Assembly (NCBI RefSeq): GCF_903853455.1 | Contig: NZ_CAINTR010000109.1 | Location: 1 to 49,990, forward strand | Direction of reading: 5' to 3' | From: an uncultured Magnetospirillum sp. | GTDB taxonomy: Bacteria > Pseudomonadota > Alphaproteobacteria > Rhodospirillales > Magnetospirillaceae | DNA length: 49,990 nucleotides | Shown: piece after piece, positions 2,195 to 33,037 of the stretch | Position numbering within the stretch: the first letter of the stretch is position 1 | Layout: each line of letters opens with the position of its first letter | Notes under the pieces: model-generated | The model's input: only the letters and a program-made list of their open reading frames with translations | Databases searched by the model: none | Told to the model about the DNA's origin: nothing | Program-made: the position numbers and the translations under genes

Positions 2195-2613
2195 TGGAAC
2201 TCGATCCGATCCTCGGCGGGTTCATCCCGCTCTTCAGGTTGCGCGGCCTCATTCTGCGCTCCTACCGAGAGAACGGCGGGGAGTTCAATCTCGTCCGCTC
2301 CGTTCAATCCCAGCGCGGGAAGCTCCATCCGGCGCTCGTCCCGGCATTCGACGAGGCCATGTCGATCATGGCCGTCCACTTTGTTTTCGGCGAGGTGTCG
2401 CACAAGGATCGGGATGAGTCGCAGAAAAAAGCCTGCGAGATCATCGACTCCGCCTGTCATCGGGTCGGAGCCTCCTGCGCCGGAATCTGGACGATGTGGG
2501 AAAGCGAGACGGAAGAGCTCCGCCTGTTCCTGGAAGGGCTTTCCGCCCATGAGCGGATGGATCTTTGCGTCCGGCTCCAGGGTCCGGGACATATATCTCC
2601 AGTCGAACGGTAA
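2194..2613 (+). CDS. Hypothetical phage protein
   Basis: 139 residues from the ATG at 2194, which overlaps the preceding TGA by one base; a GTG one codon earlier is equally possible. Not recognised. Mostly helical, with one Cys pair (CHRVGASC). Its last codons contain the first copy of the repeated GGGACATATATC word, so the promoter-like element of the next block is embedded in this reading frame. Confidence 0.7.
   Translation: MELDPILGGFIPLFRLRGLILRSYRENGGEFNLVRSVQSQRGKLHPALVPAFDEAMSIMAVHFVFGEVSHKDRDESQKKACEIIDSACHRVGASCAGIWTMWESETEELRLFLEGLSAHERMDLCVRLQGPGHISPVER
2586..2600 (+). promoter_or_regulatory. Repeated phage promoter/operator word, copy 1
   Basis: GGGACATATATCTCC, with its first base 40 bases before the ATG at 2626. 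It lies in the 3' end of the preceding gene. The 14 bases GGACATATATCTCC are symmetric except for one C/C pair. GTCCGG before it and CCGGAC at 2619-2624 could form a stem enclosing it and the Shine-Dalgarno sequence. Confidence 0.7.
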
Positions 2614-2625
2614 GGAGGCCGGACG

Positions 2626-2817
2626 ATGTGCGAACCCGATCGACAGCTCAACCGAGCGCTCTTCCTGAAAATCCGTGAGCTGTCCGACCTCGTCGGTGAG
2701 GCCGCAGACACCGGCGCCGAGATCCTCGTCGAGATCTCCGCGTCCGGCGGCGCGATCGTGCGCGAGCACATCGTCATCCGCGACGCCCGCGACATCGAGC
2801 CGCATAGCAACTCGTAA
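2626..2817 (+). CDS. Small hypothetical phage protein
   Basis: 63 residues, first gene after copy 1 of the repeated word, with a TAAGGAGG ribosome site. Not recognised. The sequence alternates helix (LNRALFLKIRELSDLVGEA) and a strand-like acidic C-terminal half (ILVEISASGGAIVREHIVI). Its TAA overlaps the ATG of the next small gene by one base. Confidence 0.65.
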   Translation: MCEPDRQLNRALFLKIRELSDLVGEAADTGAEILVEISASGGAIVREHIVIRDARDIEPHSNS

Positions 2818-2927
2818 TGGCGACCGTCAACGCCCCTGTCGTGCTGGAAGTGATCGCCATCGCGGCAATCTTCGGCGCGCTCGCCTCCATCCCGCTTTTC
2901 CTGAACCGGACGAAGCGGGATGAATGA
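2817..2927 (+). CDS. Minute single-pass membrane protein
   Basis: 36 residues. A hydrophobic segment at about 8-29 (VVLEVIAIAAIFGALASIPLFL) is followed by the basic tail NRTKRDE, predicting one membrane span with the tail in the cytoplasm. It is coupled at both ends: its ATG shares a base with the stop before, and its end overlaps the SGNH-hydrolase start. A role in the envelope together with the hydrolase is possible but not shown. Confidence 0.55.
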   Translation: MATVNAPVVLEVIAIAAIFGALASIPLFLNRTKRDE

Positions 2928-3390
2928 CGTCGGCCCCATCGTCGTCTTCGGGGACAGCCTCGCCGTCGGCGTAGGCCAAGCGCTGGCCGTCCACCATCGC
3001 GTCATCGAGCAGGGGATCGTCGGATGGGGACTGTTCCGAAAGGACGTCCCTCCGCGCCTCGACGCGCTCCGCATGGCTTCCGCCGACGGAAGCGTGGTCC
3101 TGATCTCCGTCGGAACCAACGACACGCCGGGCAGGGACTACGCCGACCGCCTGCGCCGACTGCGCGCGGCCGTGGCGGGGAATGCGCGCGTCGTGTGGCT
3201 TCTTCCCCCGACGTCATGCCGCGGCCACCTGGCCGCCGAGCGCGCCGTTCCCATGATCATCGCATTGGCCGACGAGACCGGCGACCTGGTCATCGACGCC
3301 TCGACCTGCGACCCCAATCTCCGCGCCACCGACGGCGTCCATTACACGCCGCGCGGATACCGCGCGATCGCCGAGGAGGTGGTGCGATGA
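2920..3390 (+). CDS. SGNH/GDSL-family hydrolase
   Basis: 156 residues. The four blocks of the SGNH family are visible: FGDSLAVG with the nucleophile Ser13, a block II Gly in GIVGWGL, SVGTND with Asn67, and DGVHYTPRGY with Asp138 and His141. These enzymes cleave esters of lipids or of acylated glycans. No signal peptide is seen, so an intracellular substrate, or export by another route, must be assumed. Phage versions are known on tail proteins as de-acetylases; here it is a free enzyme in the left block, next to a membrane peptide and a nuclease. Confidence 0.85.
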   Translation: MNDVGPIVVFGDSLAVGVGQALAVHHRVIEQGIVGWGLFRKDVPPRLDALRMASADGSVVLISVGTNDTPGRDYADRLRRLRAAVAGNARVVWLLPPTSCRGHLAAERAVPMIIALADETGDLVIDASTCDPNLRATDGVHYTPRGYRAIAEEVVR

Positions 3391-3590
3391 TTGAGCCACG
3401 CATGTGCCGTCTCCGTGGCCGGATCGTCTTGGTCGATGGCGGCGTCTGCACATGCCCTGACCCGCACCTCGGCGCCGACCTGATGACGACCTGCGACATC
3501 TGCGGATGGCTCAACCACACGAACGACAGCACCGCGCCGCTTTCGGCCCATGAACGGCTGGAGACAGGATGGGTGGAGGCGACGGAATGA
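3387..3590 (+). CDS. Small Cys-rich protein, probable zinc knuckle
   Basis: 67 residues from the ATG that overlaps the previous stop (ATGA). Four Cys in two pairs, CTCPDP and CDIC, about 20 residues apart, resemble a treble-clef or zinc-ribbon site. A further Cys is near the N terminus. Not assigned to a family. It overlaps the following nuclease gene by four bases, so it may act with DNA. Confidence 0.6.
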   Translation: MIEPRMCRLRGRIVLVDGGVCTCPDPHLGADLMTTCDICGWLNHTNDSTAPLSAHERLETGWVEATE

Positions 3591-3943
3591 GCGAGCGCCA
3601 GATCCAGCGCCGCATCCTGCTCGACCTGTCCGACCGAGGCCTCTTCGTATGGCGCAACGAGACCGGCGCCGCGCGGTCCATGGACGGCAAGCGGGTGATC
3701 CGGTTCGGCCTTCCCGGATCGCCGGACATCCTGGGCCTCGCCCCCGGCGGCCGCGCGCTCGGAGTCGAGGTCAAGACCGCCACGGGCAAGCAGCGCCCCG
3801 ACCAGGCCGCATTCCAAAAAGCCTTCGAGGCCGCCGGCGGCCTCTACATCCTCGCCCGATCCCCAGAAGAGGCGATCGCGGCCATTTTCGGGAGTCCCGC
3901 GTCATGCTCGCCGTCGTCTCTTTCTGCGCCCTCGTCGCCGTAA
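3587..3943 (+). CDS. VRR-NUC domain nuclease
   Basis: 118 residues from the ATGA overlap start. The whole protein is one VRR-NUC domain, a minimal PD-(D/E)XK fold: a helical ERQIQRRIL start, then FGLPGSPDILGL with the metal-binding Asp, then GVEVKTATGKQRPDQAAF with the E-x-K pair and the Gln of the family. In phages such stand-alone domains are taken to be structure-specific nucleases acting in recombination or replication. The last 40 bases overlap the protease gene. Confidence 0.85.
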   Translation: MSERQIQRRILLDLSDRGLFVWRNETGAARSMDGKRVIRFGLPGSPDILGLAPGGRALGVEVKTATGKQRPDQAAFQKAFEAAGGLYILARSPEEAIAAIFGSPASCSPSSLSAPSSP

Positions 3944-4632
3944 TCATCGGCATCCACGAAGGCGGACATCTTCTCGCCGCGCGCTGGCTCAAGGTCAATC
4001 CCGAGCAGTTCGCCATCGGCATGGGGCCGGTGCTCTGGCAACGCTACGACAGCCGGGGAATGGCGGTCCAAATCCGTCTTCTCCCCGTCGGCGGATTCGT
4101 CGATATCCCGCCGGAAGTCATGCGCGCCATTCCTCCCCTCGCGCGCGCGTTCCTTTATCTTGCCGGACCTGCGGCAAACCTGATCACCGGTGCCGCGCTC
4201 ATGTTCGCCCTCGGCGTGGCGCACGGCCACGGCGCCGGAGAAACGATCCGGCTCGTCGGCGGCGTAACGGTCGATCTTTTCTCCGGCATGTTCGAGGCCA
4301 TCGGCTCCATCGTGTCATCGGCGCACGCGTCCGATCTCGGCGGCCCGGTCACCGTGGCGAACTTCGCCGCCGACGCCGTGCGCCAGGCGGCCGACACCGG
4401 ATCCGCCAGCCCAATCCTGATCCTGCTCGGAATCGTCTCGATCTCTATCGGGGCGATCAACCTACTCCCAATCCCCATCCTGGACGGAGGCCAGATCTGC
4501 GCGTGCCTGGTGGAGCGCTTCACGGGTCCGTTCCATCCCCGCGTCGAACGCGCCCTCAACGCGATCGGCCTGGTCCTCGTCGGCGGGATCATGCTGGCGG
4601 CCATCTGCTCGGATATTGCCCGCCTGCTGTGA
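3904..4632 (+). CDS. Membrane metalloprotease of the site-2 (M50/RseP-like) family
   Basis: 242 residues. The first membrane helix carries the zinc site HEGGH (HExxH type); then come FAIGMGP and LPVGGFV. A second helix follows (LAGPAANLITGAALMFAL), and a later helix carries NLLPIPILDGGQI with the third ligand Asp. All catalytic elements of a site-2 protease are present, but the PDZ domains of the ~450-residue RseP are absent. Site-2 proteases cut membrane-embedded anti-sigma factors or peptides. The gene lies inside a coupled phage block with a sigma factor nearby; a role in releasing host sigma factors or degrading a membrane defence protein is inference. Confidence 0.85.
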   Translation: MLAVVSFCALVAVIIGIHEGGHLLAARWLKVNPEQFAIGMGPVLWQRYDSRGMAVQIRLLPVGGFVDIPPEVMRAIPPLARAFLYLAGPAANLITGAALMFALGVAHGHGAGETIRLVGGVTVDLFSGMFEAIGSIVSSAHASDLGGPVTVANFAADAVRQAADTGSASPILILLGIVSISIGAINLLPIPILDGGQICACLVERFTGPFHPRVERALNAIGLVLVGGIMLAAICSDIARLL

Positions 4633-4640
4633 GCGATCCG

Positions 4641-4654
4641 TCGCGCATTTTTTT
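4641..4654 (+). promoter_or_regulatory. Leader element A, copy 2 (TCGCGCATTTTTTT)
   Basis: The same word as at 412-424, again after a stop codon and about 100 bases before an ATG. Here CGCGCA and TGCGCG (4642-4659) form a short inverted repeat around the T-run. CTCGACTTTCTCC further on parallels TTGACTTCCTCC in copy 1. Confidence 0.45.
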
Positions 4655-4744
4655 GCGCGTGGTACTCGACTTTCTCCGACTACAGACCCACGTCGTTGAT
4701 GCTGGTGGGTGACGCAACACGCACCGCAACGAAAGGGGACCACC

Positions 4745-6232
4745 ATGAACGCCACAAATCCGACCGACTACATGGACTTCGGCGCCGACGCCGAAGCCGA
4801 AGGCATCGCTACCTCTACCTGGGCCTTTCCGCGCCTGCGAATCGGCTCCGACCAGGAAATCGCGCGCTACGTCCTGGACGAACTCGCCGCCACCCTGGGT
4901 GAAATCGTCATCGACGAGGGAGCCGTGTGGAGCTGGAACGCTACCCACTGGGCCGCCGTCGAGGAGCGCGACCTTCGCGCCAAGATTTCGGCGTGGGATG
5001 GAGCACTCACCCCTGGGAAGAAGGGGACGACCATCAAAATCGGCGCGAACAAGGCGACGTCCATCCTTTCGTGCATCCTTCTCCAGGTGCCCGAATACCA
5101 GCGCCACGGCTTCTTCGCCGCCGCCGCGCGCGGCATCAACTGCGCCTCTGGCTTCGTCCGCATCGACGACACGGGAACGGCGACGGTCGAGCCGCACAGC
5201 CCCGACCACCGCGCACGCCATTGCCTGTCCGGACGCTGGCACCAGACCGTCGATTACCGCCTCGCCATGGGTGGCTCCCTCATCAAGAAGTTCTTGGACG
5301 GCTCCGTCCTTCATCCCCTGGCGTCTCCGAATGGCGACGGGGACGAGAAGGTGGCCCTTCTACAGGAAGTGGCCGGCGTCGCCGCCATGGGACTTGGAAC
5401 CAGGTTCGCCAAGTTCGTCCTTCTCTATGGGCCGAGCGCGGGCAATGGAAAAAGCCAGTTCCTCGACATGCTCCGCGGGCTTCTCCCGCCGTCGGCCGTC
5501 TGCTCCGTAGCCCCGTCCAAGTTCGGAGACGAGAAATACAGCGCGACCATGCAGGGCCGCCTGTTGAACGCGGTCGACGAAATCAAGGGAGGATGGGACG
5601 GAATCGAGGCGGACGACTTCAAGACCGCCATCGACGGCGGCGTCATCACGGCGCGGCGGATTTACCGCGACCCGGTGTCGTTCCGCGCGACGGCCCTCAA
5701 CATCGCCGGCGCGAACGTCCTTCCGTCGTTCAAGGGCGGAATCGACGGCGGCGTGCGCCGCCGAATCATCATCGTTGGGTTCAACCGCTCCATCGCCAAT
5801 CCGGACCGCGAATGCCCCGACCTTGTGGAGCATATCGGAACCCGCATCGCCACCGAGGAGGCCGACCTTCTCCTTTCCTGGGCGATTGAGGGGGCTTGCC
5901 GCATCATCCGCCAGGGAGCCTACACGTCCCCGAAATCCGGCCGCGAAATCGTCGAGGGGTGGGTGCTGGACTCCGACCCCGTCGCCGAGTGGTTCTATGA
6001 GCGGTGCGAGGTCCGGGAGGGTTGCCGCTACAAGGTCCAAGACGTTTATCAAAATTTCTTGGACTGGTGCGACGACCGGAAATCCGTCCTGCGCGACACC
6101 AAGCTCCCGAGGCCGAAGGGATTTGGCGACCGAATCATGGGCCTCAACGGAGCGATTTCGCATGGCCGTTGCGCCACGGCGAGGCTCTATGTCGGGCTCG
6201 TCATCAAGGACCAAAACGGGGCCGTCATCTGA
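4745..6232 (+). CDS. D5/P4-type phage primase-helicase (SF3)
   Basis: 495 residues from the ATG preceded by AAAGGGGACCACC; a GTG 36 bases upstream is less likely. The N-terminal D5-like region covers about 30-210. The SF3 helicase follows, with Walker A GPSAGNGKS at 229-237, an acidic Walker B (LNAVDEI) near 273-280 and a basic sensor region (GGVRRRIIIVGF). The C-terminal part resembles the DNA-binding end of P4 alpha-like proteins. These proteins unwind the origin and start phage or plasmid replication. A strong terminator follows the stop, and an AT-rich repeat region lies directly downstream. Confidence 0.9.
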   Translation: MNATNPTDYMDFGADAEAEGIATSTWAFPRLRIGSDQEIARYVLDELAATLGEIVIDEGAVWSWNATHWAAVEERDLRAKISAWDGALTPGKKGTTIKIGANKATSILSCILLQVPEYQRHGFFAAAARGINCASGFVRIDDTGTATVEPHSPDHRARHCLSGRWHQTVDYRLAMGGSLIKKFLDGSVLHPLASPNGDGDEKVALLQEVAGVAAMGLGTRFAKFVLLYGPSAGNGKSQFLDMLRGLLPPSAVCSVAPSKFGDEKYSATMQGRLLNAVDEIKGGWDGIEADDFKTAIDGGVITARRIYRDPVSFRATALNIAGANVLPSFKGGIDGGVRRRIIIVGFNRSIANPDRECPDLVEHIGTRIATEEADLLLSWAIEGACRIIRQGAYTSPKSGREIVEGWVLDSDPVAEWFYERCEVREGCRYKVQDVYQNFLDWCDDRKSVLRDTKLPRPKGFGDRIMGLNGAISHGRCATARLYVGLVIKDQNGAVI

Positions 6233-6271
6233 CAGAAGCGTCATTCGACCTAACCGACCTTCCGCTCAATG

Positions 6272-6295
6272 GGGCCGCCGATTGGCGGCCCTTTT
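6272..6295 (+). terminator. Intrinsic terminator after the primase gene
   Basis: An 8-base-pair stem GGGCCGCC/GGCGGCCC with loop GATT is followed by TTTT and, after four bases, another TTTT. It closes the left block of genes. Confidence 0.85.
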
Positions 6296-6305
6296 GCCGT
6301 TTTGG

Positions 6306-6517
6306 ATGACAGATCGCCCCGATAATGACGGGAAATGACACTTTGGATTTGGAACCGTCATGCGATTTTATCCAATAAAATCAAGGCTCTATTTCTTCTC
6401 TATGACACAATGACACTTAGATAGAGATAAGAGATAGGAGGGAGAAAAGCGGTATGGCATGCCGGATCGCCATTTGTAGAACTTGTTCAAAACGAAGTGT
6501 CATGTGTCATCTGTCAT
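6306..6517 (+). repeat. ATGACAC repeats in both orientations, candidate replication origin
   Basis: ATGACAC occurs at 6335-6341, 6402-6408 and 6410-6416, with the variant ATGACAG at 6306-6312. The inverse GTGTCAT/CTGTCAT occurs as three contiguous copies at 6497-6517. CTTTGGATT is also repeated (6341 and 6519). The stretch is much richer in A+T than its surroundings and has no gene. Iteron-like repeats beside a D5 primase-helicase gene suggest an origin; this is inference. Confidence 0.55.
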
Positions 6518-6699
6518 TCTTTGGATTCTAAAAAGATAAGACGGAATATTGAAATATATGATTACAAGTTACGCTCGGCCGCGCTCCGCTAGACTGAAAG
6601 GAAAAAAGTTCGTCCAGCCATTGACCAGATTCCGGGCGAATCCCATATAGATGTTGTCCCCGGCGTTCTCCTTTCCGCCACGGACAAACCCAGCGCTGA
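6518..6699. other. Non-coding stretch between candidate origin and terminator
   Basis: AT-rich to about 6570, then mixed. No supported gene. A leftward reading frame here looks protein-like near 6600-6660 but runs through the terminator stem at 6700 and the promoter word at 6742, so I do not call it. Confidence 0.4.
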
Positions 6700-6733
6700 G
6701 GCCCCGGTTCGTTGCGTCGAACCGGGGCCATTC
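6700..6733 (+). terminator. Strong hairpin before the endolysin block
   Basis: A perfect 12-base-pair stem (GGCCCCGGTTCG at 6700-6711 with its complement at 6718-6729) has loop TTGCGT and a T-rich tail (ATTCGTTTGTT). It lies immediately upstream of copy 2 of the repeated word and insulates the next block. Confidence 0.8.
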
Positions 6734-6741
6734 GTTTGTTC

Positions 6742-6756
6742 GGGACATATATCTCC
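6742..6756 (+). promoter_or_regulatory. Repeated phage promoter/operator word, copy 2
   Basis: GGGACATATATCTCC, with its first base 40 bases before the ATG at 6782, exactly the spacing of copy 1. It is followed by TCTTGAACGC, similar to AGTCGAACGG after copy 1. It probably drives the endolysin and head genes. Confidence 0.75.
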
Positions 6757-6781
6757 TCTTGAACGCAAACAGGAGGCGGAC

Positions 6782-7135
6782 ATGGGCATTGCTGGCGGAG
6801 ACTTCGGGGTGGCTGGGCTCGACCCCGACAACGGAATGCCTGACTTCTTCTCCGAGATTCGGAGATCCGAAAGGGAACGTGGAAAGATCGGTCGTCGGGA
6901 CTGGAAGAAGAAAGCCATCCGGGCCGTATGGGGGCTTTCCCCGCTTCGAGATCTCCTCGAATACGTCGACCACTACGCGGTCCATTCCATCGATCTCAAA
7001 AATCCTGGGAGGAACACGCGCCAGCTCCAAGAGCTTGCCGGAATCATGCGCCTGGTCCAGGAGCACGCCAAGGTGCTGGGGGATCGGTTCGATAAGGCCG
7101 CGTCCCTCACGGTCGACGCCGGGAGGCCGGAATGA
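6782..7135 (+). CDS. Hypothetical phage protein upstream of endolysin
   Basis: 117 residues, ATG preceded by CAGGAGG. Not recognised. Hydrophilic and helical, with a basic centre (RRSERERGKIGRRDWKKK) and a C-terminal helical half with heptad character. No signal or membrane segment. It is the first gene after copy 2 of the repeated word and overlaps the endolysin start by four bases. Confidence 0.7.
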   Translation: MGIAGGDFGVAGLDPDNGMPDFFSEIRRSERERGKIGRRDWKKKAIRAVWGLSPLRDLLEYVDHYAVHSIDLKNPGRNTRQLQELAGIMRLVQEHAKVLGDRFDKAASLTVDAGRPE

Positions 7136-7665
7136 GCCCGCTTCAACAATCCATGCTGGATTCCGTCTTCGAGTTCGAAGGCGGCTTTTCCAATGACCCG
7201 AACGATCACGGCGGCGCCACCAACTGGGGGATCACCCATGCGGAGATCTCGCGCTTCCTCGGGCATGACGCCTCGATTGACGAGGTAAAGGCGTTCCCGA
7301 AGGCCGACGCCGAGACGATCTACCTGCGCAACTACCTGGCCGCGCCGAGGATCGACCAGCTCCCGGAAGCCCTCCAGCCAGTCATGTTCGACTGGGGCGT
7401 GAATGCCGGACCCGGCCGCCCCATCAAGACCCTGCAGGGCCTGCTCGGCCTGTCGCAGGACGGCGCGATTGGCCCGGCCACGATCCACGCATCGGCGGCC
7501 GCGTGTTCGACGCCGGCGGCGGCTACCGCTTTGGTGGTCCGCCTCTGCGACGCTCGGGTGGCCTTCTACAACCGCCTCGTCGCCAACGATGCCACGCAGG
7601 GCAAGTTCTTGAAGGGCTGGCTTCGCCGGGCCAATGCGTTCCGCCCCAAGACGGTGGAGGCGTAA
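7132..7665 (+). CDS. Phage endolysin, glycoside hydrolase 108 family
   Basis: 177 residues. The N-terminal domain has the family pattern EGGFSNDPNDHGG-TNWGIT with the predicted catalytic Glu16, followed by the helical DWGVNAGPGRPIKTLQ region and a C-terminal peptidoglycan-binding part (GLSQDGAIGPAT). It is a muramidase-type enzyme that cuts the glycan strand at lysis. No signal peptide is visible, so a holin or another export route is needed. Three minute membrane ORFs follow directly. Confidence 0.9.
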   Translation: MSPLQQSMLDSVFEFEGGFSNDPNDHGGATNWGITHAEISRFLGHDASIDEVKAFPKADAETIYLRNYLAAPRIDQLPEALQPVMFDWGVNAGPGRPIKTLQGLLGLSQDGAIGPATIHASAAACSTPAAATALVVRLCDARVAFYNRLVANDATQGKFLKGWLRRANAFRPKTVEA

Positions 7666-7773
7666 ATGGAACTCATCCTCCAGACCATCGGCTTCATCGT
7701 TTCGGTCCTTGCCGGATGCTTCGTAATCTGGCTGTCGCACAACTCCGACGGCGGAGGGCCTACCCATGCCTGA
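7666..7773 (+). CDS. Minute membrane protein 1 of the lysis group
   Basis: 35 residues, ATG directly after the endolysin TAA. One hydrophobic segment (LILQTIGFIVSVLAGCFVIWL) is followed by a polar tail. Size, one span and position suggest a holin or spanin-like component; no family assignment is possible. Confidence 0.55.
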   Translation: MELILQTIGFIVSVLAGCFVIWLSHNSDGGGPTHA

Positions 7774-7855
7774 GGCCTCCTTCGCCTTCTTCATCGTGAG
7801 CCTTGGCCCATGCGCCTTCCTGCTCCGTGCCGGATTCCGGGATCACCATCAATGA
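7766..7855 (+). CDS. Minute membrane protein 2 of the lysis group
   Basis: 29 residues, overlapping the gene before by eight bases and the next by four. One hydrophobic segment (ASFAFFIVSLGPCAFLL) precedes a basic tail. It could be a real peptide or a coupling ORF for the next gene. Confidence 0.4.
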   Translation: MPEASFAFFIVSLGPCAFLLRAGFRDHHQ

Positions 7856-7950
7856 TCGGGTTCCTGCTTTTGCTCGGCGCTTTCGTCGGGGCGTTCCTGA
7901 TCTACGTCCGCATCGTCTCTGGGTTCATCAACGAGGACCACGACAAATGA
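7852..7950 (+). CDS. Minute membrane protein 3 of the lysis group
   Basis: 32 residues with an N-terminal span (IGFLLLLGAFVGAFLIYV) and a charged tail ending in NEDHDK. ATGA overlaps at both ends. It is probably part of the lysis cassette; holin and anti-holin roles cannot be told apart. Confidence 0.5.
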   Translation: MIGFLLLLGAFVGAFLIYVRIVSGFINEDHDK

Positions 7951-8902: not shown

Positions 8903-9037
8903 CGCTTTCAATGGTTTACGGGTCCCCCCTGACTGAAAAGCTTACACGGGTGCCAGAGGCGTCCGATCTTTTGAGCGTCGAGCCCAAAAATCCCGGAAAC
9001 CCCGAAACGCAAAAATCCTGAAAGCCGCAGGAATCCT

Positions 9038-11444: not shown

Positions 11445-11446
11445 CC

Positions 11447-16708: not shown

Positions 16709-17641
16709 ATGGCCGACACCAAGATTTCTGCGCTTTCGGCGGCCTCGACGCTCGACGGCAGCGAGCTGCTGCCGGTCGTGCAGGGCGGCTCGACCGTCAA
16801 GGCGACGGCAGCGGCGATCGCCGCCCTTGCCTCTGGCGGCGGCGGCGGAAACGGCCTCCTGGCCGTCGATGCCTCCACGCTTGGGCCATCGGTCTCCGCG
16901 CTCGCCGCAGGGACTCACGCGGCCTATGCCGGGTTCAAGTTCACCGGCGCCGCCGCTGGAATGAGCCTCCCAATCGCCCATGGCGACGTCCGCGGGTATC
17001 TGATCGATGCCTCGGGTATGACCGGGACCTACGCCGTCCTCCATTCCTATGACGGGACGACCCTCGACGATGGATTCCGCGTCACCGCCGGCGACGTCGG
17101 AATCGTCGAGTTCAACGGCGGGGCCTACAAGGTCATCGGTGGGACGTTTGCGTATTATCCGGCCACTCTGGCCTCGACTGGGCCATTTTTCTTCCGCGTC
17201 CGAAAGGACGTAGCGCAACGCCAGACCTCACCGTATCTCGGAGTGGCTACCATCTCGTGGAGCACCGTCGATTTGAACTCGACCGGGCTTGCCGACTCCG
17301 CCCTCTTCTCGACATCGAACAACACCAGGATCGTTGTTCCGAGCGGATCTGGCTATACGAAGGTCCGCCTCCGTTGTTGCCTCGCTCCCGGATACCAATC
17401 CGTTTATTTCTCCAAATGGTTTTTCAAGAATGGCGTAGGCCAGCCATTGGACGGAGCCTACAACCAGTCCGGATATGTCGACGGGAATCTGAACGGTTCC
17501 GCGCTCTTCGAGTGGGAATCCCCGATAATCATGTGCTCCGAGGGGGACTACTTCGAGGCGCAGGTCTACAACCAGAACGGAGGGGGGATCACTCTCTACG
17601 AAGACTGGAACACCTACTTCGAGGCGGAGTTTTACAAATGA
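16709..17641 (+). CDS. Fibre or spike protein
   Basis: 310 residues. The start, DTKISALSAASTLDGSELLPVVQGGSTVKAT in short pieces, is the common attachment module of phage fibres, followed by a Gly-rich linker. The C-terminal half is a beta-rich head domain with many aromatic and Asn residues (YFSKWFFKNGVGQPLDGAYNQ), fitting a receptor- or glycan-binding trimer. Lying after the spike-base protein, it may be a capsid spike rather than a tail fibre. Confidence 0.75.
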   Translation: MADTKISALSAASTLDGSELLPVVQGGSTVKATAAAIAALASGGGGGNGLLAVDASTLGPSVSALAAGTHAAYAGFKFTGAAAGMSLPIAHGDVRGYLIDASGMTGTYAVLHSYDGTTLDDGFRVTAGDVGIVEFNGGAYKVIGGTFAYYPATLASTGPFFFRVRKDVAQRQTSPYLGVATISWSTVDLNSTGLADSALFSTSNNTRIVVPSGSGYTKVRLRCCLAPGYQSVYFSKWFFKNGVGQPLDGAYNQSGYVDGNLNGSALFEWESPIIMCSEGDYFEAQVYNQNGGGITLYEDWNTYFEAEFYK

Positions 17642-19202: not shown

Positions 19203-19225
19203 AACCGCACCTGATACGACGATTG

Positions 19226-19262
19226 GAGGCCTGGGACATATATCTGTTCTAGGCCTCTTTTT
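19226..19262 (+). terminator. Terminator whose loop holds the repeated promoter word
   Basis: The stem GAGGCCT/AGGCCTC (19226-19232 with 19251-19257) is followed by TTTTT. The 18-base loop consists of GGGACATATATCTGTTCT, copy 3 of the repeated word. The element therefore could stop the tube transcript and start the next one. Confidence 0.7.
19233..19245 (+). promoter_or_regulatory. Repeated phage promoter/operator word, copy 3
   Basis: GGGACATATATCT, with its first base 47 bases before the ATG at 19280. The right half departs from the palindrome (TGT instead of TCC), while the left half is kept. Confidence 0.7.
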
Positions 19263-19279: not shown

Positions 19280-19705
19280 ATGAGCCTTCTCGATATTGTC
19301 GGCGCCGCCGCGCCCCGCGTCGTTTCCACCTCCATCGGCGACGTCCCGGTGACCGGGATCTCCGTCCGTGGCCTGGCGATTCTGATGCGCCGTTTCGATG
19401 TCATTCGCACCGCCTTGACCGGCGGCGAGGTACCGGACTTCTCCATCGAGACCCTGGTCGAGCTCGGACCCGATGTGGTCGACGCCATCATTGCCGCCGG
19501 AACCGGATCGCCCGGAGACGCCGCGGCCGAGCAGGTCGCCGGAACCCTCGTCATCGAGGACCAGGTGGCGCTCATCGAGGCTATTGTCTCCGCGACCTTC
19601 CCGAAGGGTCCCAAGAGTTTTTTGGAACGCATCACGGCCATGGCGGGGCAAGCGCACCATCTGCTGCCGTCGTCTCCGCTGCCGGCGGTTTCCTCGGCGG
19701 CGTAA
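19280..19705 (+). CDS. Tail assembly chaperone, short form (gpG-like)
   Basis: 141 residues, the product of normal reading. Helical, with VTGISVRGLAILMRRFDVI and a conserved FPKGPKSFLERITAMAG end. Such proteins coat the tape measure during tail assembly and are made in two forms. The heptamer T TTT TTG lies at 19618-19624 in the phase needed for a -1 shift. Confidence 0.8.
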   Translation: MSLLDIVGAAAPRVVSTSIGDVPVTGISVRGLAILMRRFDVIRTALTGGEVPDFSIETLVELGPDVVDAIIAAGTGSPGDAAAEQVAGTLVIEDQVALIEAIVSATFPKGPKSFLERITAMAGQAHHLLPSSPLPAVSSAA

Positions 19706-23044: not shown

Positions 23045-23047
23045 CCG

Positions 23048-23542
23048 ATGACCCAAACCATCCTCACCCTCGGATCCATCGCCATTCCGTCCGGCGCCGG
23101 GCGCGGAATCAAGCAGACGCTCGTCTTGGACGGGAACGGCGAGATCCGGCGCGACGTGAATGGGAACCTGGTCGATCTGACCATTCCCGCGCTCCGGAAG
23201 TTCAAGTCGTCCGTGTCGTGCGCCGACCAGTCGGCCCCGTCCATCGCCGGAATCTGGCGCGGTGCCATCCTTACCGTCGGGTGCGCCGTCGAGGTGTCAG
23301 AAGTCGTGGCGACAACTACGCCGACACTGAACCGGACGCCGGTATCTGGATCTATCCGGGCCGCTGGGACCGACGGGACATATATCTCTGTCAGCGGGAC
23401 GACCCTGTCCGCGCTCGATGGGACGGGGCACGCAGTCGTCTTCTATCGGCCGCAGCTCACGATGATGGTCACCGACATCCAGATCCATTCCGACGAATGG
23501 ACCGCCGGCATGGACTGGACAATCGAACTGCAAGAGGTCTAA
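23048..23542 (+). CDS. Tail tip-associated protein, unassigned
   Basis: 164 residues, four bases after the tape measure. Beta-rich (GRGIKQTLVLDGNGEIRRDVNGN; AVVFYRPQLTMMVTDIQIH). Its DGTYISVSG segment is encoded by copy 6 of the repeated word. Probably a distal-tail component by place; the family is not recognised. Confidence 0.6.
   Translation: MTQTILTLGSIAIPSGAGRGIKQTLVLDGNGEIRRDVNGNLVDLTIPALRKFKSSVSCADQSAPSIAGIWRGAILTVGCAVEVSEVVATTTPTLNRTPVSGSIRAAGTDGTYISVSGTTLSALDGTGHAVVFYRPQLTMMVTDIQIHSDEWTAGMDWTIELQEV
23375..23388 (+). promoter_or_regulatory. Repeated phage promoter/operator word, copy 6 (inside a gene)
   Basis: GGGACATATATCTC within the coding sequence, 171 bases before the ATG at 23546. 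The spacing differs from the other five, so it may be an internal promoter for the tail-tip genes or a chance match imposed by the codons for GTYIS. Confidence 0.4.
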
Positions 23543-23545
23543 AAA

Positions 23546-25585: not shown

Positions 25586-25586
25586 C

Positions 25587-28301: not shown

Positions 28302-28330
28302 CCGCGATCTTCCAAGGAAAACACCACTAA

Positions 28331-28356
28331 TACAGAGGGCGGTATCGTCCTCTGTA
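28331..28356 (+). terminator. Hairpin after the tail block
   Basis: An 11-base-pair stem TACAGAGGGCG/CGTCCTCTGTA (one G-U pair) with a four-base loop is followed by ATCCTTCCCCC. CCACTAATACA (28324-28334) overlaps its left arm, as the same word precedes the hairpin at 8492. Confidence 0.65.
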
Positions 28357-28387
28357 ATCCTTCCCCCATGCCTACAGGACCCAAGAA

Positions 28388-28729
28388 ATGGACCTCAACG
28401 GAACCGAAGCCGTCTTTAAGATTTTGGGCGGCCTCTTCACAGGTCTTGCCGTCATCGGCGGAGTCCTATGGAAGATCATCCTGTCCGGATTCAAGGCGGA
28501 GATCGCCCAACATGAAGAGCGCGAGAATGCCGGAATCAAGGCTCTCGCGGAAAAGATCGATGCGAAGGTTGGCGACCTTGACGATAAGGTGGTTAGCCTG
28601 CGCCTCGAAGTCACCAAGGACTACGCGCCCAAGTCCTCGCTCGAAGAAGTCGGAAAGCGCTTTGACGATCGCATGAGGCATATCGACGACAAGCTCGATC
28701 GAATCTTGGAACTCCTTGTCCGGCGCTGA
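28388..28729 (+). CDS. Membrane-anchored coiled-coil protein
   Basis: 113 residues. One membrane span at about 12-33 (ILGGLFTGLAVIGGVLWKIIL) is followed by a heptad-rich coiled coil to the end (KALAEKIDAKVGDLDDKVVSLRLEV, RHIDDKLDRILELLV). This build is shared by some holins, by superinfection-exclusion proteins and by small phage membrane proteins of unknown role. It lies alone between the tail block and copy 4 of the repeated word. Confidence 0.65.
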   Translation: MDLNGTEAVFKILGGLFTGLAVIGGVLWKIILSGFKAEIAQHEERENAGIKALAEKIDAKVGDLDDKVVSLRLEVTKDYAPKSSLEEVGKRFDDRMRHIDDKLDRILELLVRR

Positions 28730-28739
28730 TCGGACGTTC

Positions 28740-28755
28740 GGGACATATATCTCCC
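28740..28755 (+). promoter_or_regulatory. Repeated phage promoter/operator word, copy 4
   Basis: GGGACATATATCTCCC, with its first base 46 bases before the GTG at 28786, followed by CCTTGAGA as copy 2 is by TCTTGAAC. It would drive the block 28786-31848. Confidence 0.75.
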
Positions 28756-28785
28756 CCTTGAGAAAACAGCCTTGGGGGCGACGCG

Positions 28786-29826
28786 GTGAGCGACAAATAC
28801 GCCAGAGCACGGGAACTTTTGGAAGCGCACGGATCCGTCCGCGCCGCCTCTCGTGAGTCAGGCATCGCCCGCCGCACCCTTCGGGACTGGCTCTCGAGCA
28901 GTCCTGGGAGGGGCGACACCATGAACATCGATCTGACGGGGGCCATGGGCCTCGACATCATGATCTCCCGAATGGGGGACATCATCGACGCCAAGCTCGC
29001 CGAGCGCTTCGGCCCGGCCGGAACGCCGCCGAAGGCCAAGCGCCGGATCAAGCCGGCCACGACGCACGACAACAGCCGCGTCCTCGTCGTCCCCGATCTC
29101 CACGTCCCCTATAACCACCCCGACGCATTTTCTTTCCTGGTGGCCGTCCGCGATTGGCTGAAGCCGACGCGGGTCATCTGCACCGGCGACGAGGTGGACA
29201 ACCACGCCATGTCGTTCCACACGTCCGACCCGGACCTCGACAGCGCCGGGCCGGAGCTGGAGAAATCCCGCGCCGGGATGGCCGAGCTGGAACGGCACTT
29301 CAAGCAGCTCGACTTGGTGACTTCGAACCACGGATCACTCTCCCGCCGCAAGGCGTATGAGCACGGAATTCCCGAGCGCCTGATCACCCACTACCGCCAT
29401 ACGCTTTTCGGCGAGACCGAGGACGACGGCACCGTGGAATACCCAGAGGATCGCGGCGCCGGCTGGTGGTGGCACGACGAACTCGTGATCGACCTGCCCG
29501 ACGGCCGCCACGCGGTCATGCGGCACACCTGGGGCGCAAACCTTAAGCTGATGGCGCAGAGGAACGGCTGTTGCCTCATCCAGGGCCACCACCACGGCCT
29601 CTTGGACGTCCAGCACGCGCAGCTCGCCCGCCAACGGATTTGGTCGCTCACTGCCGGATGCTTGGTCGATCCGGAATGCCCGGCCATGGCCTACGGACGC
29701 GGAAACGCGGTCCAGCCCATGATTGGATGCGCGGCGATCATTGACTCCGAGCCTTGCGCGATCCCCATGCCCCTCGACCGGCGCGGACGCTGGACGGGAC
29801 GGCTTCCTGTTGTCCCGACTGCGTGA
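28786..29826 (+). CDS. Helix-turn-helix fused to a metallophosphoesterase
   Basis: 346 residues, GTG start after GGGGGCGACGCG. Residues 5-36 form a transposase- or Fis-like HTH (ARELLEAHGSVRAASRESGIARRTLRDWL in parts). From 97 a calcineurin-type metallophosphoesterase follows, with D104-L-H106, G134-D135 to D138, N181-H182 and the late GHHH near 267-270, so both metal sites appear intact. Substrates of this family range from phosphoproteins to nucleic acids and nucleotides. The link to a DNA-binding head suggests action on DNA, which is inference. Confidence 0.8.
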   Translation: MSDKYARARELLEAHGSVRAASRESGIARRTLRDWLSSSPGRGDTMNIDLTGAMGLDIMISRMGDIIDAKLAERFGPAGTPPKAKRRIKPATTHDNSRVLVVPDLHVPYNHPDAFSFLVAVRDWLKPTRVICTGDEVDNHAMSFHTSDPDLDSAGPELEKSRAGMAELERHFKQLDLVTSNHGSLSRRKAYEHGIPERLITHYRHTLFGETEDDGTVEYPEDRGAGWWWHDELVIDLPDGRHAVMRHTWGANLKLMAQRNGCCLIQGHHHGLLDVQHAQLARQRIWSLTAGCLVDPECPAMAYGRGNAVQPMIGCAAIIDSEPCAIPMPLDRRGRWTGRLPVVPTA

Positions 29827-29836
29827 GGAATCACCC

Positions 29837-30334
29837 ATGAGCGCCGAAATAACCCTGCGATTCGTCTCCAGCCACAAGTCCTCGCTCATGGGCCGCGCCA
29901 TCGACTGGTTCACGCAGGGCCGCGTCGGCCATGTCGACGCCGTCCTTCCAGACGGCTCCCTGCTCGGGTCCCAGGCGACGGAATACGGAGAGATCCCTGC
30001 CGGAGTCCAAATCCGTCCGGCCAACTACTGGGATTTCGACCGGGTCTATTTGGTCCGGATCCCGGTATCGGAAGCGCAGCTCGCCGGCTGGAACGGCTTC
30101 ATGCAGCGCCAGATCGAGAAGCCCTACGACTACGCTGCCATCGCCGCATTCCCGGTCCAGCGCGACTGGAGGAACGACGACGCATGGTTCTGCTCCGAAC
30201 TCCAAGCCGCCGCCTTGGAGGAGATCGGCTTCTGGCCGTATCCGCTCGCGGCGCCCGTCAACAAGATCACCCCACAAGCCCTGCTCCTGTTGTGCAGCGC
30301 CTCGGGCGTGGTCGAAGCCGTCAAGGAAGACTGA
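29837..30334 (+). CDS. Permuted NlpC/P60-like (YiiX-type) peptidase
   Basis: 165 residues from the ATG at 29837. The permuted order of the family is seen: an early His in GHVDAVLPDGS (His32) and a late Cys in DAWFCSELQAAALEEIG (about 118). A tryptophan-rich helix lies between. Phage members act as amidases or endopeptidases on cell-wall peptides or as lipoprotein-modifying enzymes. No signal peptide is seen. Its neighbours are a membrane protein and two lipoproteins. Confidence 0.75.
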   Translation: MSAEITLRFVSSHKSSLMGRAIDWFTQGRVGHVDAVLPDGSLLGSQATEYGEIPAGVQIRPANYWDFDRVYLVRIPVSEAQLAGWNGFMQRQIEKPYDYAAIAAFPVQRDWRNDDAWFCSELQAAALEEIGFWPYPLAAPVNKITPQALLLLCSASGVVEAVKED

Positions 30335-30336
30335 AC

Positions 30337-30642
30337 ATGGACCTGACCAACCTCCCCGCGCTGTGGGCCGAAGCCTGGCCTGTCATCGCCGCCGTCACCG
30401 CCGGCGCCTCGGCGCTCGACGCCATCCTCCCGCAACCGGCCCCCGGCTCGCATTGGCTGATCGCCCGCAAGGTGCTGTCCTTCGTCGCCATCAACGTCGG
30501 CCATGCCAGCAACGGCGCGCAGCCATCGTTTTTGACCTGGATCGCGCGCGTCGCCGGACCCGTCCTGGCCGCGCAGGCCGCGGCGCAGGCCGCCGCCGTT
30601 CCGGCCCCGGCGCCGACCCCCGCCAACCCCCCGTCCGCGTAA
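30337..30642 (+). CDS. Small membrane-associated protein, possibly holin-like
   Basis: 101 residues. Two to three moderately hydrophobic stretches (AWPVIAAVTAGASALDAIL, WIARVAGPVLAAQAAAQAAAV) flank a polar middle (WLIARKVLSFVAINVGHASNGAQP). The end is Pro/Ala-rich. The build fits a phage holin or an envelope peptide; not assigned. It sits two bases behind the peptidase gene. Confidence 0.55.
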   Translation: MDLTNLPALWAEAWPVIAAVTAGASALDAILPQPAPGSHWLIARKVLSFVAINVGHASNGAQPSFLTWIARVAGPVLAAQAAAQAAAVPAPAPTPANPPSA

Positions 30643-30653
30643 GGAACCCCACC

Positions 30654-31040
30654 ATGAAGAAGATCCTCGTCGCCTCCGCCTTCGTCCTCGCGCTGTCGGC
30701 CTGCTCCTCCACCACCTCGTCCGACGTCCAGAAGGTTGTCACGCAGGCGAACGAGAACGTCGCCGCTGTGTCCTCCAACCTTCCGTCCGCGTGCCTGGCT
30801 CTCGCCGCTCTCCATGACGCCTTCACCGTCGCCGCGGCGTTCTCGCCCGACGTCGCCGCGCAAGCCTCCACCGAGGCGGCCGTCTATGACGGTCTGACGA
30901 ACGGCGCCGGACCCTGTTCCCCGTCCACTCTGGCGAATCCGCCGGCCAACGTCGCGTCCCTTGTGGCCGACGTCGTGAAGGCCTCCCTGGGTGTCCAAGC
31001 GGCGCTGAAGCCCGCCGCCGCCGCCGCGGCGTCGAAGTAA
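30654..31040 (+). CDS. Phage lipoprotein 1
   Basis: 128 residues with a clear lipoprotein signal: MKKILVASAFVLALSAC, with the lipobox LSAC at 14-17. The mature part is Ala/Ser/Val-rich with two further Cys (SACLALA and GPCSPS). Its TAA overlaps the ATG of the second lipoprotein gene. Possible roles are an outer spanin or blocking of superinfection; nothing in the sequence decides. Confidence 0.75.
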   Translation: MKKILVASAFVLALSACSSTTSSDVQKVVTQANENVAAVSSNLPSACLALAALHDAFTVAAAFSPDVAAQASTEAAVYDGLTNGAGPCSPSTLANPPANVASLVADVVKASLGVQAALKPAAAAAASK

Positions 31041-31363
31041 TGAAGCGCCTAGCCGCCGTCGCCGCCGTCTTCCTCCTGTCGGGGTGCGCTGCCGTCCCGA
31101 TGGTGGCTGGCGGCGCGGTGGCTGGGTATTTCGCCGCCGCCCAAACCATCAACCATGACATCGACCTCGCCAACACCGCCGCGCAACCGCTCTTCCGGGC
31201 GATCTGCGCGGTGGAGGTGACCAAGCCGCATTCCGACAAGGTGAAGACCGCCATCGCCGTGGTCTGCGCCGATCTCCCGTCCCTTGAATCGCTCGCCGGC
31301 CGGCTACGCCTCGCCGTTGAGGTCGCGGTTCTCATCGAGGCCGAGGAGGCCGCAAGCAAGTGA
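31040..31363 (+). CDS. Phage lipoprotein 2
   Basis: 107 residues: MKRLAAVAAVFLLSGCAAV with lipobox LSGC at 13-16, a Gly/Ala hydrophobic patch (VAGGAVAGYFAAAQT) and a helical end with two Cys. It overlaps lipoprotein 1 by one base and the sigma-like gene by four. Two lipoproteins in tandem behind a wall peptidase suggest an envelope-modifying or exclusion group. Confidence 0.75.
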   Translation: MKRLAAVAAVFLLSGCAAVPMVAGGAVAGYFAAAQTINHDIDLANTAAQPLFRAICAVEVTKPHSDKVKTAIAVVCADLPSLESLAGRLRLAVEVAVLIEAEEAASK

Positions 31364-31848
31364 GCATCAATCCGGCGGCACACATCGGGCTCGTCCATGC
31401 CTTCCTGAAGAAGATCGGAGCGCGCGACCGGTGCCGGAAGGCCCGGTTCGACTACGACGATCTCGTCCAGGAATGCCTTCTCGAAATCTGCAAATCCGCC
31501 GCGAAAAATCCGACCTTTTCATGCGACGAGTCGACCTACGTCTGGGCGATCGTTGAACGGACCGCCTGGAATGTCCTGGTCTGCGAGGACAAGCGGTCGA
31601 GGACCGAGATCCAGTCTTCCAGCCCGTGGGACGTCGAGGACGCCGACGAGGACCGGAGACGCGAGGTAGCCGAGGAAGTCGAGGACCTGCTCACGAAACT
31701 GGATGCGCGCGCCCTGGACGTCGTCCTGTCCTATTATGGAATCGGGCGCAAGGAAGAAGCCGTGCCAGCGATTGCGGCACGGCTTGGTCTTTCCGTTCGG
31801 CGCGTTCATGAGCTGCTGGCCCATGCCCGCGCAGTCCTGCGGGCCTAA
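31360..31848 (+). CDS. Second sigma-70-like factor (ECF-sized)
   Basis: 162 residues, GTG start overlapping the stop before (GTGA). Region 2 is seen near 26-75 (FDYDDLVQECLLEICKSAAKN, then TYVWAIVERTAWNVL). Region 4 is near 110-160 (LLTKLDARALDVVLSYYGIG, then the helix-turn-helix IAARLGLSVRRVHELLAHAR). The linker is short and acidic, as in ECF factors. It is the last gene behind copy 4 of the repeated word, so it may be made late, in a relay with the first sigma factor. Confidence 0.75.
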   Translation: MSINPAAHIGLVHAFLKKIGARDRCRKARFDYDDLVQECLLEICKSAAKNPTFSCDESTYVWAIVERTAWNVLVCEDKRSRTEIQSSSPWDVEDADEDRRREVAEEVEDLLTKLDARALDVVLSYYGIGRKEEAVPAIAARLGLSVRRVHELLAHARAVLRA

Positions 31849-32009
31849 AAGATCGGGATGGCCGAAACCAGCTCCTCGGGCGTGACGAGGTAGCCCTCGC
31901 CGGTGTCGAGGTCGGAGACGATCTCCATTCCGTCCTCGTATGAGCCGTAGAAAATGACGTCGCGCTCGGTGCCGTCGTCGAGGGTGATTCGGTAGATTGA
32001 TTTGGCCAT
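31845..32009 (-). CDS. Small acidic protein, leftward
   Basis: 54 residues from an ATG with GGAGGACGAC before it, the same leader as the relaxase gene at 33038. The sequence is a small beta protein with strands SIYRITLDDGTERDVIFYG and GEGYLVTPEELV, rich in Asp and Glu. Its TAG overlaps the end of the sigma-like gene tail to tail. It could be an inhibitor of that factor, but there is no evidence beyond place and charge. Confidence 0.6.
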   Translation of the reverse strand: MAKSIYRITLDDGTERDVIFYGSYEDGMEIVSDLDTGEGYLVTPEELVSAIPIF

Positions 32010-32026
32010 GTCGTCCTCCATCGGTG

Positions 32027-32054
32027 AAGCCGGCGCATAAGCGCCGGCTTTTTC
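32027..32054 (+). terminator. Hairpin terminator between small gene and 228-residue gene
   Basis: A perfect 10-base-pair stem AAGCCGGCGC/GCGCCGGCTT has loop ATAA. The T-run lies on the + side, so it best stops rightward transcripts coming from the sigma-like gene. Confidence 0.75.
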
Positions 32055-32058
32055 TGCT

Positions 32059-32745
32059 TCAGCGGGCCGCCGCGGCGGAGCGCTCGGATCGGTCGGCCAT
32101 GTGGATGACGTTCTCCGTCCAGCGGCCGGCATCGATCATCAGGCGCTCCTCGGGGAAGAGGCTGGCGGCCAGCTCGCGGACGTGGGCTCGGGCGCACAGC
32201 TCGGAATGGACCCGGATTCCCTGGCGAGCCTGGTGGCGGGAGCGCAGGAGTTCGATGGCCTTGAGGACATGCTCCCGGCGGCGGTCGATGATGGACGGCG
32301 AGTTCATGGGTCGGAAGATGTCGCGCAGGCCAAGGGCGAATCGGTCGGCGCGGGTTTGCGGGTTGGCGAGGAAGTCGGCCACCTTCTGCTCCGACCATCC
32401 CTTGTCCATGAGCGCGTCGGCCGCGGCGAAGATCGTGTCCCCGCTCTGCGTGAAGACCTCGGCCATACGGCCAATGAGGCGGCGTTCCGCGAGGACGGTC
32501 GGCTCGTCGTCCAGGAGATTGACATGCGCGGCCTGGCGGCGGATGGCATCGGCCTCCTCGCGCATCCGGCGAAGGACGGCGACCAGGCCCACGGCGCGCT
32601 CGCGGCGCGCGGTGGCGTCCATGGTGTCGCGCTGGGCCACGTAGCGGTCCAAGGCGATCATCTGGTCTTGGACTTCGCCGGCGTGCTCGATGTGCTGCTG
32701 GCCGAGGGAACGGATGAAGCGGGTCCCGAAGGTCTGGTTGGTCAT
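32059..32745 (-). CDS. Hypothetical helical protein, leftward
   Basis: 228 residues from the ATG with AACAGGAGACGAAC before it; the frame extends upstream without a ribosome site. All helical and rich in Arg, Ala and Glu (ARRERAVGLVAVLRRMREEADAIRRQ), without membrane segments. Not recognised. It runs against the direction of the phage blocks and shares its 290-base upstream interval with the relaxase gene. Confidence 0.6.
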   Translation of the reverse strand: MTNQTFGTRFIRSLGQQHIEHAGEVQDQMIALDRYVAQRDTMDATARRERAVGLVAVLRRMREEADAIRRQAAHVNLLDDEPTVLAERRLIGRMAEVFTQSGDTIFAAADALMDKGWSEQKVADFLANPQTRADRFALGLRDIFRPMNSPSIIDRRREHVLKAIELLRSRHQARQGIRVHSELCARAHVRELAASLFPEERLMIDAGRWTENVIHMADRSERSAAAAR

Positions 32746-33037
32746 GTTCGTCTCCTGTTGGTGGCGAGGCCTCCCAGCCTCAACACCGACATGGAGCACG
32801 CCAAATCGAAGTCTAGTCTTGCGCGGCGGTTTTTGTTGTGTAGACCTATATAATCCGGCCTTCATTCAACGAAAACAACGAGATACCAAAGAAACCACAG
32901 CCACCCCGCAGCGGTAGCCACAGCGGAGGCACAGCATCAACAACAGCACGATCAGGATTCCGTCTCGAATGTCTCTAAATGTGCTCATGGGACATATATC
33001 CATAGTAAGTCGTAAGGGGTTTTTCTTGGAGGACGAC
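32746..33037. other. Divergent intergenic interval before the relaxase gene
   Basis: About 290 bases between oppositely directed genes, richer in A+T than the neighbours. It holds TATAAT at 32849-32854 and copy 5 of the repeated word at 32989. Relaxase genes often have their transfer origin upstream, so oriT could lie here; I see no clear inverted repeat to place it. Confidence 0.35.
32989..33002 (+). promoter_or_regulatory. Repeated phage promoter/operator word, copy 5
   Basis: GGGACATATATCCA, with its first base 49 bases before the ATG at 33038. ATGG and CCAT flank the core as a short inverted repeat. The right half differs from the palindrome. Confidence 0.65.

Follow-up and report, generated by a model that had tools for sequence, protein, structure and literature searches.

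In temperate phages, late genes are known to be reached by antitermination or by activators. The late promoters of T4 consist of a single −10-like element read by the phage sigma factor gp55, and the stoperators of mycobacteriophage L5 are oriented, asymmetric repressor sites. The element considered here, the 12-base word GGGACATATATC, differs in sequence from both; it is repeated along the phage part (taken as positions 1-35946) of contig NZ_CAINTR010000109.1 (C109) of an uncultured Magnetospirillum sp., the entire contig of 49,990 bases being referred to below as the window. In phiEco32, according to the accessible text of the report, gp36 serves six promoters with the single element tAATGTAtA and with starts 6-8 bp downstream (PMC8948821). 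The middle/late promoters of phiEco32 gp36 and the late promoters of 7-11 gp47 are likewise, in the accessible portions of both papers, a few well-conserved, short, AT-rich elements standing before gene blocks and served by a phage-encoded sigma (PMC4331800, PMC8948821). A different precedent is the SPBRE of the Bacillus prophage SPbeta, described in the consulted text as a repeated 15-bp element in promoter regions that is bound by the master repressor MrpR, with ten chromatin affinity precipitation sequencing (ChAP-seq) peaks located only inside the phage; it had been found by sequence search years before MrpR binding was shown (PMC10516654).

Compared with these systems, the word resembles the phiEco32 promoters in being a single element, whereas the 7-11 promoters are bipartite. 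Its sequence differs from that of phiEco32, and gp36 lacks region 4 homology, while the larger sigma gene product of the present phage, sig1, has a region 4; a phiEco32-type system in the narrow sense was thus rejected, since the element is single but sig1 carries region 4 (7.4e-11). Unlike phiEco32 and 7-11, the phage considered here is a prophage with an integrase, and the promoter function of its word is predicted. Like the SPBRE (PMC10516654, as far as the accessible text goes), the word is short and recurs within one temperate phage, in what would be its promoter regions, yet here no host-type promoter was found at the words, no MrpR-like protein was recognised, and phage sigma genes are present. 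The Start-Associated Sequences (SAS) of cluster K mycobacteriophages, described in the consulted part of the source as asymmetric 13-bp repeats, mostly in one orientation and tied to gene starts, share these traits with the word (PMC3203893). The word was not assigned to this class: SAS stand immediately upstream of starts, and the word lies 40-49 bases away in five cases and inside a gene once.

A scan of the window confirmed the six identical copies reported in the initial annotation, at the same positions and all on the + strand. T directly follows the word in five of the six copies, which are the following:
2586..2597, + strand: word copy 1, 40 bases before the ATG at 2626, in the last codons of the gene 2191-2613.
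6742..6753, + strand: word copy 2, 40 bases before the ATG at 6782 (a gene without assigned function, followed by endolysin, terminase and head genes).
19233..19244, + strand: word copy 3, 47 bases before the ATG at 19280 (tail block), part of a terminator-like hairpin.
23375..23386, + strand: word copy 4, inside the gene 23048-23542, in frame, and 171 bases before the gene 23546.
28740..28751, + strand: word copy 5, 46 bases before the GTG at 28786 (metallophosphoesterase block, which holds the second sigma-like gene).
32989..33000, + strand: word copy 6, 49 bases before the ATG at 33038 (MobV-type relaxase-like gene).

The count in the host genome, proposed in the initial annotation as a check, bears out the specificity of the word: the genome that the window comes from (5,182,805 bases on 223 contigs) holds six exact copies, all of them in the window and none elsewhere. 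When one mismatch is allowed, eight further sites appear in this genome, all of them outside the window; the reversed word, used as a control, has four, and these one-mismatch sites are background. Of 54 other genomes of the family, seven contain the exact word once and no genome contains it more often, which by our own arithmetic is about the expectation for a random 12-mer. Within the window, up to two mismatches recover the six copies, one palindromic self-match, one site in the host part and nothing more; with up to three mismatches there are 23 sites against 18.9 expected, which is chance level. An order-1 Markov model of the phage part 1-35946 predicts 0.0005 copies per strand where six are found, and in 200 dinucleotide shuffles the best dispersed same-strand 12-mer reached two copies in 111, three in 87 and four in 2. 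A chance repeat, or one produced by codon usage, is favoured by the small copy number and by nothing further. Besides the expectation of 0.0005, the copies that lie within genes speak against it, as they occupy two frames and use rare codons; the genome count, the shuffles and the codon data already refute this explanation, whose probability we regard as negligible. The repeat is real and specific, and a role in transcription control is very probable.

The distances from word to start codon in five copies (40, 40, 47, 46 and 49 bases, to 2626, 6782, 19280, 28786 and 33038) are as first described. Relative to 39 gene starts, which were picked by hand with the finding already known and of which 28786 and 33038 are debatable, 1.5% of positions fall 38-51 bases before a start, and the probability that at least five of six copies fall there is about 5e-9. 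The start at 28786 has no good Shine-Dalgarno sequence, and the reading frame of 33038 is open upstream to an ATG at 32969, a longer start that would put word copy 6 inside the gene. Copies 1 and 4 both overlap genes, but they are read in different frames there, and the codons that spell the word are rare in the phage (in copy 1, ATA, which makes up 2.3% of Ile codons, and TCT, 6.5% of Ser; in copy 4, ACA, 4.6% of Thr); because the frames differ and the codons are rare, the word is kept as DNA rather than as protein. In copies 1 and 2, the start codon follows the word after just 28 bases, which include the Shine-Dalgarno sequence. A role as a −35 element or as an upstream activator site is hardly possible, since transcription would then begin at or past the ribosome site. 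The geometry thus lets the word be a −10 element. If a start is placed about 7 bases past the word, an offset that is our choice and corresponds to ordinary sigma-70 geometry, the predicted leaders measure 22, 22, 29, 28 and 31 bases, and 153 for copy 4.

A candidate reader of such an element is encoded by the phage itself. Two sigma-type genes, which the initial annotation did not mention, lie in the window:
493..1227, + strand: sig1, a sigma-70 family sigma factor of 244 residues, ahead of the first exact word and the proposed reader of the word.
31360..31848, + strand: sig2, sigma-like, of extracytoplasmic function (ECF) size, 162 residues, in the block behind word copy 5.
The sig1 protein matches phrog_351 (1.9e-17) and, with 51.5 bits, exceeds the cut-off of 42.9 for TIGR02937, which makes it a phage-encoded sigma-70 family protein. 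It also matches Sigma70_r4 (7.4e-11), Sigma70_r2 below the cut-off of that family (6.7e-4) and, in a phmmer comparison, solved sigma factors over residues 3-235 (2.9e-6). For sig2, the matches are to phrog_1740 (1.9e-7), to TIGR02937 with 39 bits, under the cut-off of 42.9, and to Pfam regions 2 and 4, both under cut-off. Structures predicted without alignment are poor for both proteins (mean predicted local distance difference test score, pLDDT, of 47.9 for sig1 and 53.4 for sig2).

Altogether, the proposal of a phage-specific promoter made in the initial annotation is supported by the absence of other exact copies in the genome, by the fixed orientation and spacing, by two terminators at the words and by the phage sigma genes. 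That the word has promoter function is, on these grounds, fairly probable; that a phage sigma reads it is somewhat better than an even bet; that it is sig1 rather than sig2 is given slightly less than an even chance. The best single reading is that the word forms the −10-type core, with GGGAC upstream, of promoters for the phage's own sigma. With all of its steps taken jointly, we hold it slightly short of an even chance, having lowered our estimate from even because of a hairpin before sig1 and the one-mismatch background. This would be a known kind of system and no new category. The statement in the initial annotation that no described promoter has this sequence agrees with the literature searched, in whose papers the string is absent. 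In the same searches, which left many journals outside their coverage and reached papers in part, no case of a temperate phage or prophage using its own sigma for late genes was recognised; Bacillus phage sigma factors are mentioned in the accessible text of PMC10688885.

Two terminator-like hairpins, at copies 2 and 3, are of particular relevance to this reading:
6700..6729, + strand: terminator-like hairpin of 12 pairs, whose end lies 12 bases ahead of word copy 2 (−28.5 kcal/mol, z −3.67).
19225..19258, + strand: terminator-like hairpin of 14 pairs with the loop TATATC, containing word copy 3 (−26.3 kcal/mol, z −6.46).
Three copies had been described as adjoining or sitting in terminators; terminator scans retain two of them, copies 2 and 3, and do not extend to a third. 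In copy 3, GGGACA belongs to the 5′ arm of the hairpin, TATATC is the loop, and the 3′ arm occupies 19245-19258. Transcription is predicted to start at 19251, where the G+C-rich AGGCCTC in the 3′ arm of this hairpin (19225-19258) begins. Because that start lies inside the 3′ arm, new transcripts would be without the 5′ arm and would escape the terminator, and transcripts arriving from upstream would form it. The four copies that stand apart from terminators show no notable RNA fold (z 0.65, −1.56, 1.51 and −0.75), and Rfam gave no match over the window at the gathering threshold.

A variant of the word lies outside the window, on a contig that we infer to adjoin it. The left end of the window overlaps the right end of contig C195 (locus L317), 188 bases of C195 aligning with 200 of the window at 94% identity, and by eye the 12 missing bases are one unit of a local tandem repeat. 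This 12-base repeat, GGGACGCTGGAC, was likewise found by eye in the phage DNA methyltransferase gene (window 84-150, L317:19896-19951), and a differing number of its units probably caused the assembly to break there. On L317, a divergent gene, L317:16191-16754 (− strand), has a weak match to phrog_5823 (8.4e-4) and none in NCBIfam; this match and its position suggest that it is repressor-like. To the right follow a gene with GTG at 16938, a helicase gene at 17485, the methyltransferase gene across the contig break and then sig1. Between the repressor-like gene and these rightward genes stands the near-copy GGCACATATATC, with one mismatch, at L317:16812-16823 on the + strand. By chance, the left arm would hold 0.007 matches of this quality per strand. 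Another match, at L317:15510, has two mismatches, lies within leftward genes and was left uncounted. The only sigma-70-type promoter found in L317:14000-20000 points leftward (TTGACA-18-TAGGAT); shuffles lead one to expect 0.9 of such promoters, and alone it is weak. Its −10 is covered by the dyad GCGTgatcctACGC (L317:16774-16787), and it is likely the promoter of the repressor gene. The dyad occurs once as an exact copy, and its loose form GCGTN6ACGC twice more, at L317:13289 and at window 20367.

Comparison of seven sites, i.e., the six exact copies and the near-copy on C195, bears on how the word might be recognised. The word had been called palindromic but for one C/C pair, and an operator had been proposed from that symmetry. 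The C/C mismatch is indeed found at all seven sites, but the full near-palindrome GGACATATATCTCC is complete at only three of them. Around the ATATAT axis, the inner three pairs are complementary at 7/7 sites and the next pair is C/C at 7/7, while the outer pairs are kept at 5, 4, 3 and 1 of the seven. A fixed mismatch is not expected of a symmetric operator, and the operator proposal is weak for this reason; a symmetric repressor operator was discarded as a candidate, since two-fold symmetry is not kept in the copies. A TTGACA-like −35 at 15-19 bp spacing was looked for at the same seven sites, and the summed match of 19/42 compares with a random mean of 20.1; promoter scans recognised no sigma-70-type promoter at the words. 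With the −35 match at random level, a host sigma-70-type promoter with a −35 was ruled out.

If the word is read by the phage's sigma, the following sequence of events can be proposed. In the lysogen, the repressor at the divergent switch would silence the early rightward genes. Upon induction, the early genes would be turned on and sig1 (493-1227) made, and sig1 would take over the RNA polymerase core of the host and direct it to the six exact words. From these, the replication, lysis/head, tail and accessory blocks would be transcribed; each transcript would begin about 7 bases downstream of its word and have a short leader holding the ribosome site. The near-copy at the switch may further let the sigma boost the early genes, a feedback that we consider unlikely. 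Hardly less doubtful is the wider proposal that a lambda-like temperate phage would have swapped antitermination for its own sigma and a private, near-invariant 12-bp element, that the variant at the switch would be self-boosting, and that the promoter folded into a terminator would cut read-through and free new starts. If the reading is true, the phage carries its own switch for later genes. A defined protein and a defined element of 12 bp would then make up a predicted pair of sigma and promoter in a temperate phage whose host is a high-GC bacterium, and a sigma cascade would join the antitermination and activator routes to late genes. With no further exact copy of the element in the host, the pair could also serve as an orthogonal promoter.

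Several observations weigh against this reading. Copy 4 lies inside a gene, and most sigma promoters vary more than this word does. In phiEco32, the accessible text explains the missing −35 of the promoters by the missing region 4 of gp36 (PMC8948821). With a clear region 4 in sig1, a second promoter element is expected, and only weak upstream traces are seen: column conservation is weak, the 6-mer block being equalled by 2 of 60 random sets, and a T stands ten bases before the word in five of the six copies, with G at the near-copy. A further feature precedes sig1:
401..418, + strand: terminator-like hairpin between the methyltransferase gene and sig1, 7 pairs followed by TTTTTT (−9.0 kcal/mol, z −2.04).
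Eight of 200 shuffles were as good as this hairpin. If it works, sig1 needs read-through or its own promoter, and the promoter scan found no such promoter there. The hairpin may gate sigma synthesis within the cascade; alternatively, it may indicate that the early-operon model is wrong in this simple form. The near-copy, in turn, is one of the eight one-mismatch sites of the genome, and GGCACATATATC occurs also at L339:4751-4762 (C167:8750-8761, − strand), upstream of a host ArsR-type gene and on the opposite strand; for the role of the near-copy, only its position in the switch region and its orientation count. The seven other one-mismatch sites were read: none stands beside a gene of the type found in the window, four lie in long open frames (on C207, C64, C82 and C11), and the one on C38 is just before a start codon with AGGAGG. 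Lastly, searches of phages, contigs and genomes found no second phage with this sigma and word in which the two could be compared for co-variation, and none with several copies of the word.

The main rival holds that the word is the site of a phage master regulator, an asymmetric repressor site that would silence the blocks in the lysogen in the manner of the SPBRE. The precedent of MrpR, which in the accessible text binds a 15-bp element in SPbeta promoter regions (PMC10516654), is as good as that of phiEco32. Such a regulator would fit the near-copy, which stands next to the repressor-like gene in the switch region, and also the rigid 12-mer, as the site of one tightly binding protein. However, an operator needs a promoter to block, and none of the sigma-70 type was found at the words; the switch region has another dyad, GCGTgatcctACGC, at the likely promoter of the repressor gene; the one integrase gene seen is needed as integrase, with no second MrpR-like protein recognised among the scanned proteins; and the symmetry of the word is poor. 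We regard this explanation as unlikely, although it is the strongest competitor of the sigma promoter, and should it hold, the same sites would define the regulon of a new lysogeny regulator.

Slightly less likely still, the word could be read by another factor: by sig2, by an unrecognised early activator (e.g., among the products of 1224-2613) or by an alternative host sigma. Three genes behind sig1 are without family match, sig2 is sigma-like, and the hairpin before sig1 weakens the case for sig1. Each candidate nevertheless meets a difficulty. For an activator, a class I/II site 40 bases before the start codon puts the transcript start past the ribosome site; sig2 sits in the block behind word copy 5 and would need an earlier start; and a host sigma is at odds with the lack of any further exact host copy, although one-mismatch sites exist. 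That the word works as RNA, in antitermination or as a leader element, and not as DNA, is improbable. Its fixed strand, the two copies at terminators and the membership of copy 3 in a stable hairpin are in keeping with an RNA element, but copy 2 comes right after a terminator with 40 bases to the gene, which leaves no room for a separate promoter, and the four copies away from terminators fold unremarkably.

Compared with other phages, the sigma-word pair stands by itself so far. Among phage records, sig1 matches two records of one Listeria phage at 29% identity; no relative was found in viral or genome contigs with exact 8-residue patterns, which detect close relatives only, nor at 1e-12 in a sample of 296 other genomes of the order, taken from a larger group. 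For sig2, there was none in phages at 0.01 and none in the 296 other genomes at 1e-6. The portal protein has many relatives, up to about 52% identity, and the tail genes are almost without relatives (L200 for four proteins, G046:C10 for one). Ten regions that surround related portal genes were compared, taken from within the genus, the family and the order, and neither sigma was matched in them at 1e-4. The most surprising dispersed 12-mers of these regions (the two best words per region, scored against expectation) reach three or four copies and log10 values of −4.0 to −10.6, versus −22.6 here; with 11-mers, two G+C-rich words reached six dispersed copies in one region of the ten (L325/L326). 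This comparison agrees with the sigma-word pair and is a single case. The 14-mer GGGACATATATCTC, used as a query, retrieved 110 viral stretches with one copy each, and one copy of the 12-mer each; these are slices of contigs, of which none was noticed twice. The word followed by AGGAG and ATG retrieved 10 viral and 58 genome stretches with one match each. Among the loci collected, the window's own excluded, none has at least three copies of the word within one mismatch, and of those not obtained by head-gene similarity only L245, retrieved for that gene, matched a gene of the window. The matches to the word queries are thus background. In two Rhodospirillaceae metagenome genomes (L285:1558-1596 and L290:4891-4929), the word starts 36 bases before the start codon of apparently the same gene; these single copies are probably due to chance.

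According to PHROGs and Pfam, the gene content is that of a tailed, lambda-like phage, with recognised genes for a Holliday junction resolvase/endonuclease, primase/helicase, endolysin, terminase, portal, protease, decoration, major head, tail and tape measure proteins; the three genes behind sig1 match no family. The last of the rightward genes recognised as phage genes, 33038-33889 (+ strand), matches Pfam Mob_Pre above cut-off and MobV relaxases below the NCBIfam cut-off, and a MobV/Mob_Pre relaxase-like gene is odd for a tailed phage. The left arm, on L317, carries a leftward block with integrase, single-stranded DNA-binding protein (SSB), recombination and anti-restriction genes, while its helicase gene points rightward; the one integrase gene seen is L317:8653-9870. 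The right border is marked by a repeat:
35947..35987, strand not assigned: right attachment repeat, the 3′ part of a tRNA gene, 38/41 identical to L317:6975-7015.
The two 41-bp repeats are most likely attL and attR, which would give a prophage of about 49 kb that continues on C195.

The tRNA gene at this border, window 35947-36236 (− strand), is split in the anticodon loop by an insert. The insert, 36019-36213, matches the group I intron model with 32.4 bits (E 1.8e-6), under the Rfam gathering score of 50, and the 41-bp attachment repeat stops where the intron meets exon 2, on the exon side. ARAGORN with introns names the gene tRNA-Thr(cgt), and the exons joined by eye give tRNA-Lys(CTT). Nearby, at window 36329-36383 (− strand), lies a decayed tRNA-like copy without intron, at 27.4 bits just under the Rfam cut-off of 29, whose 5′ half is nearly as in the neighbouring split gene and which was perhaps left by another integration. 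Within the phage part, the AT-rich intergenic stretch at window 6240-6690, after the primase gene, contains several TGACA/TGTCA words in both directions, as judged by eye, and could be an origin or an operator cluster.

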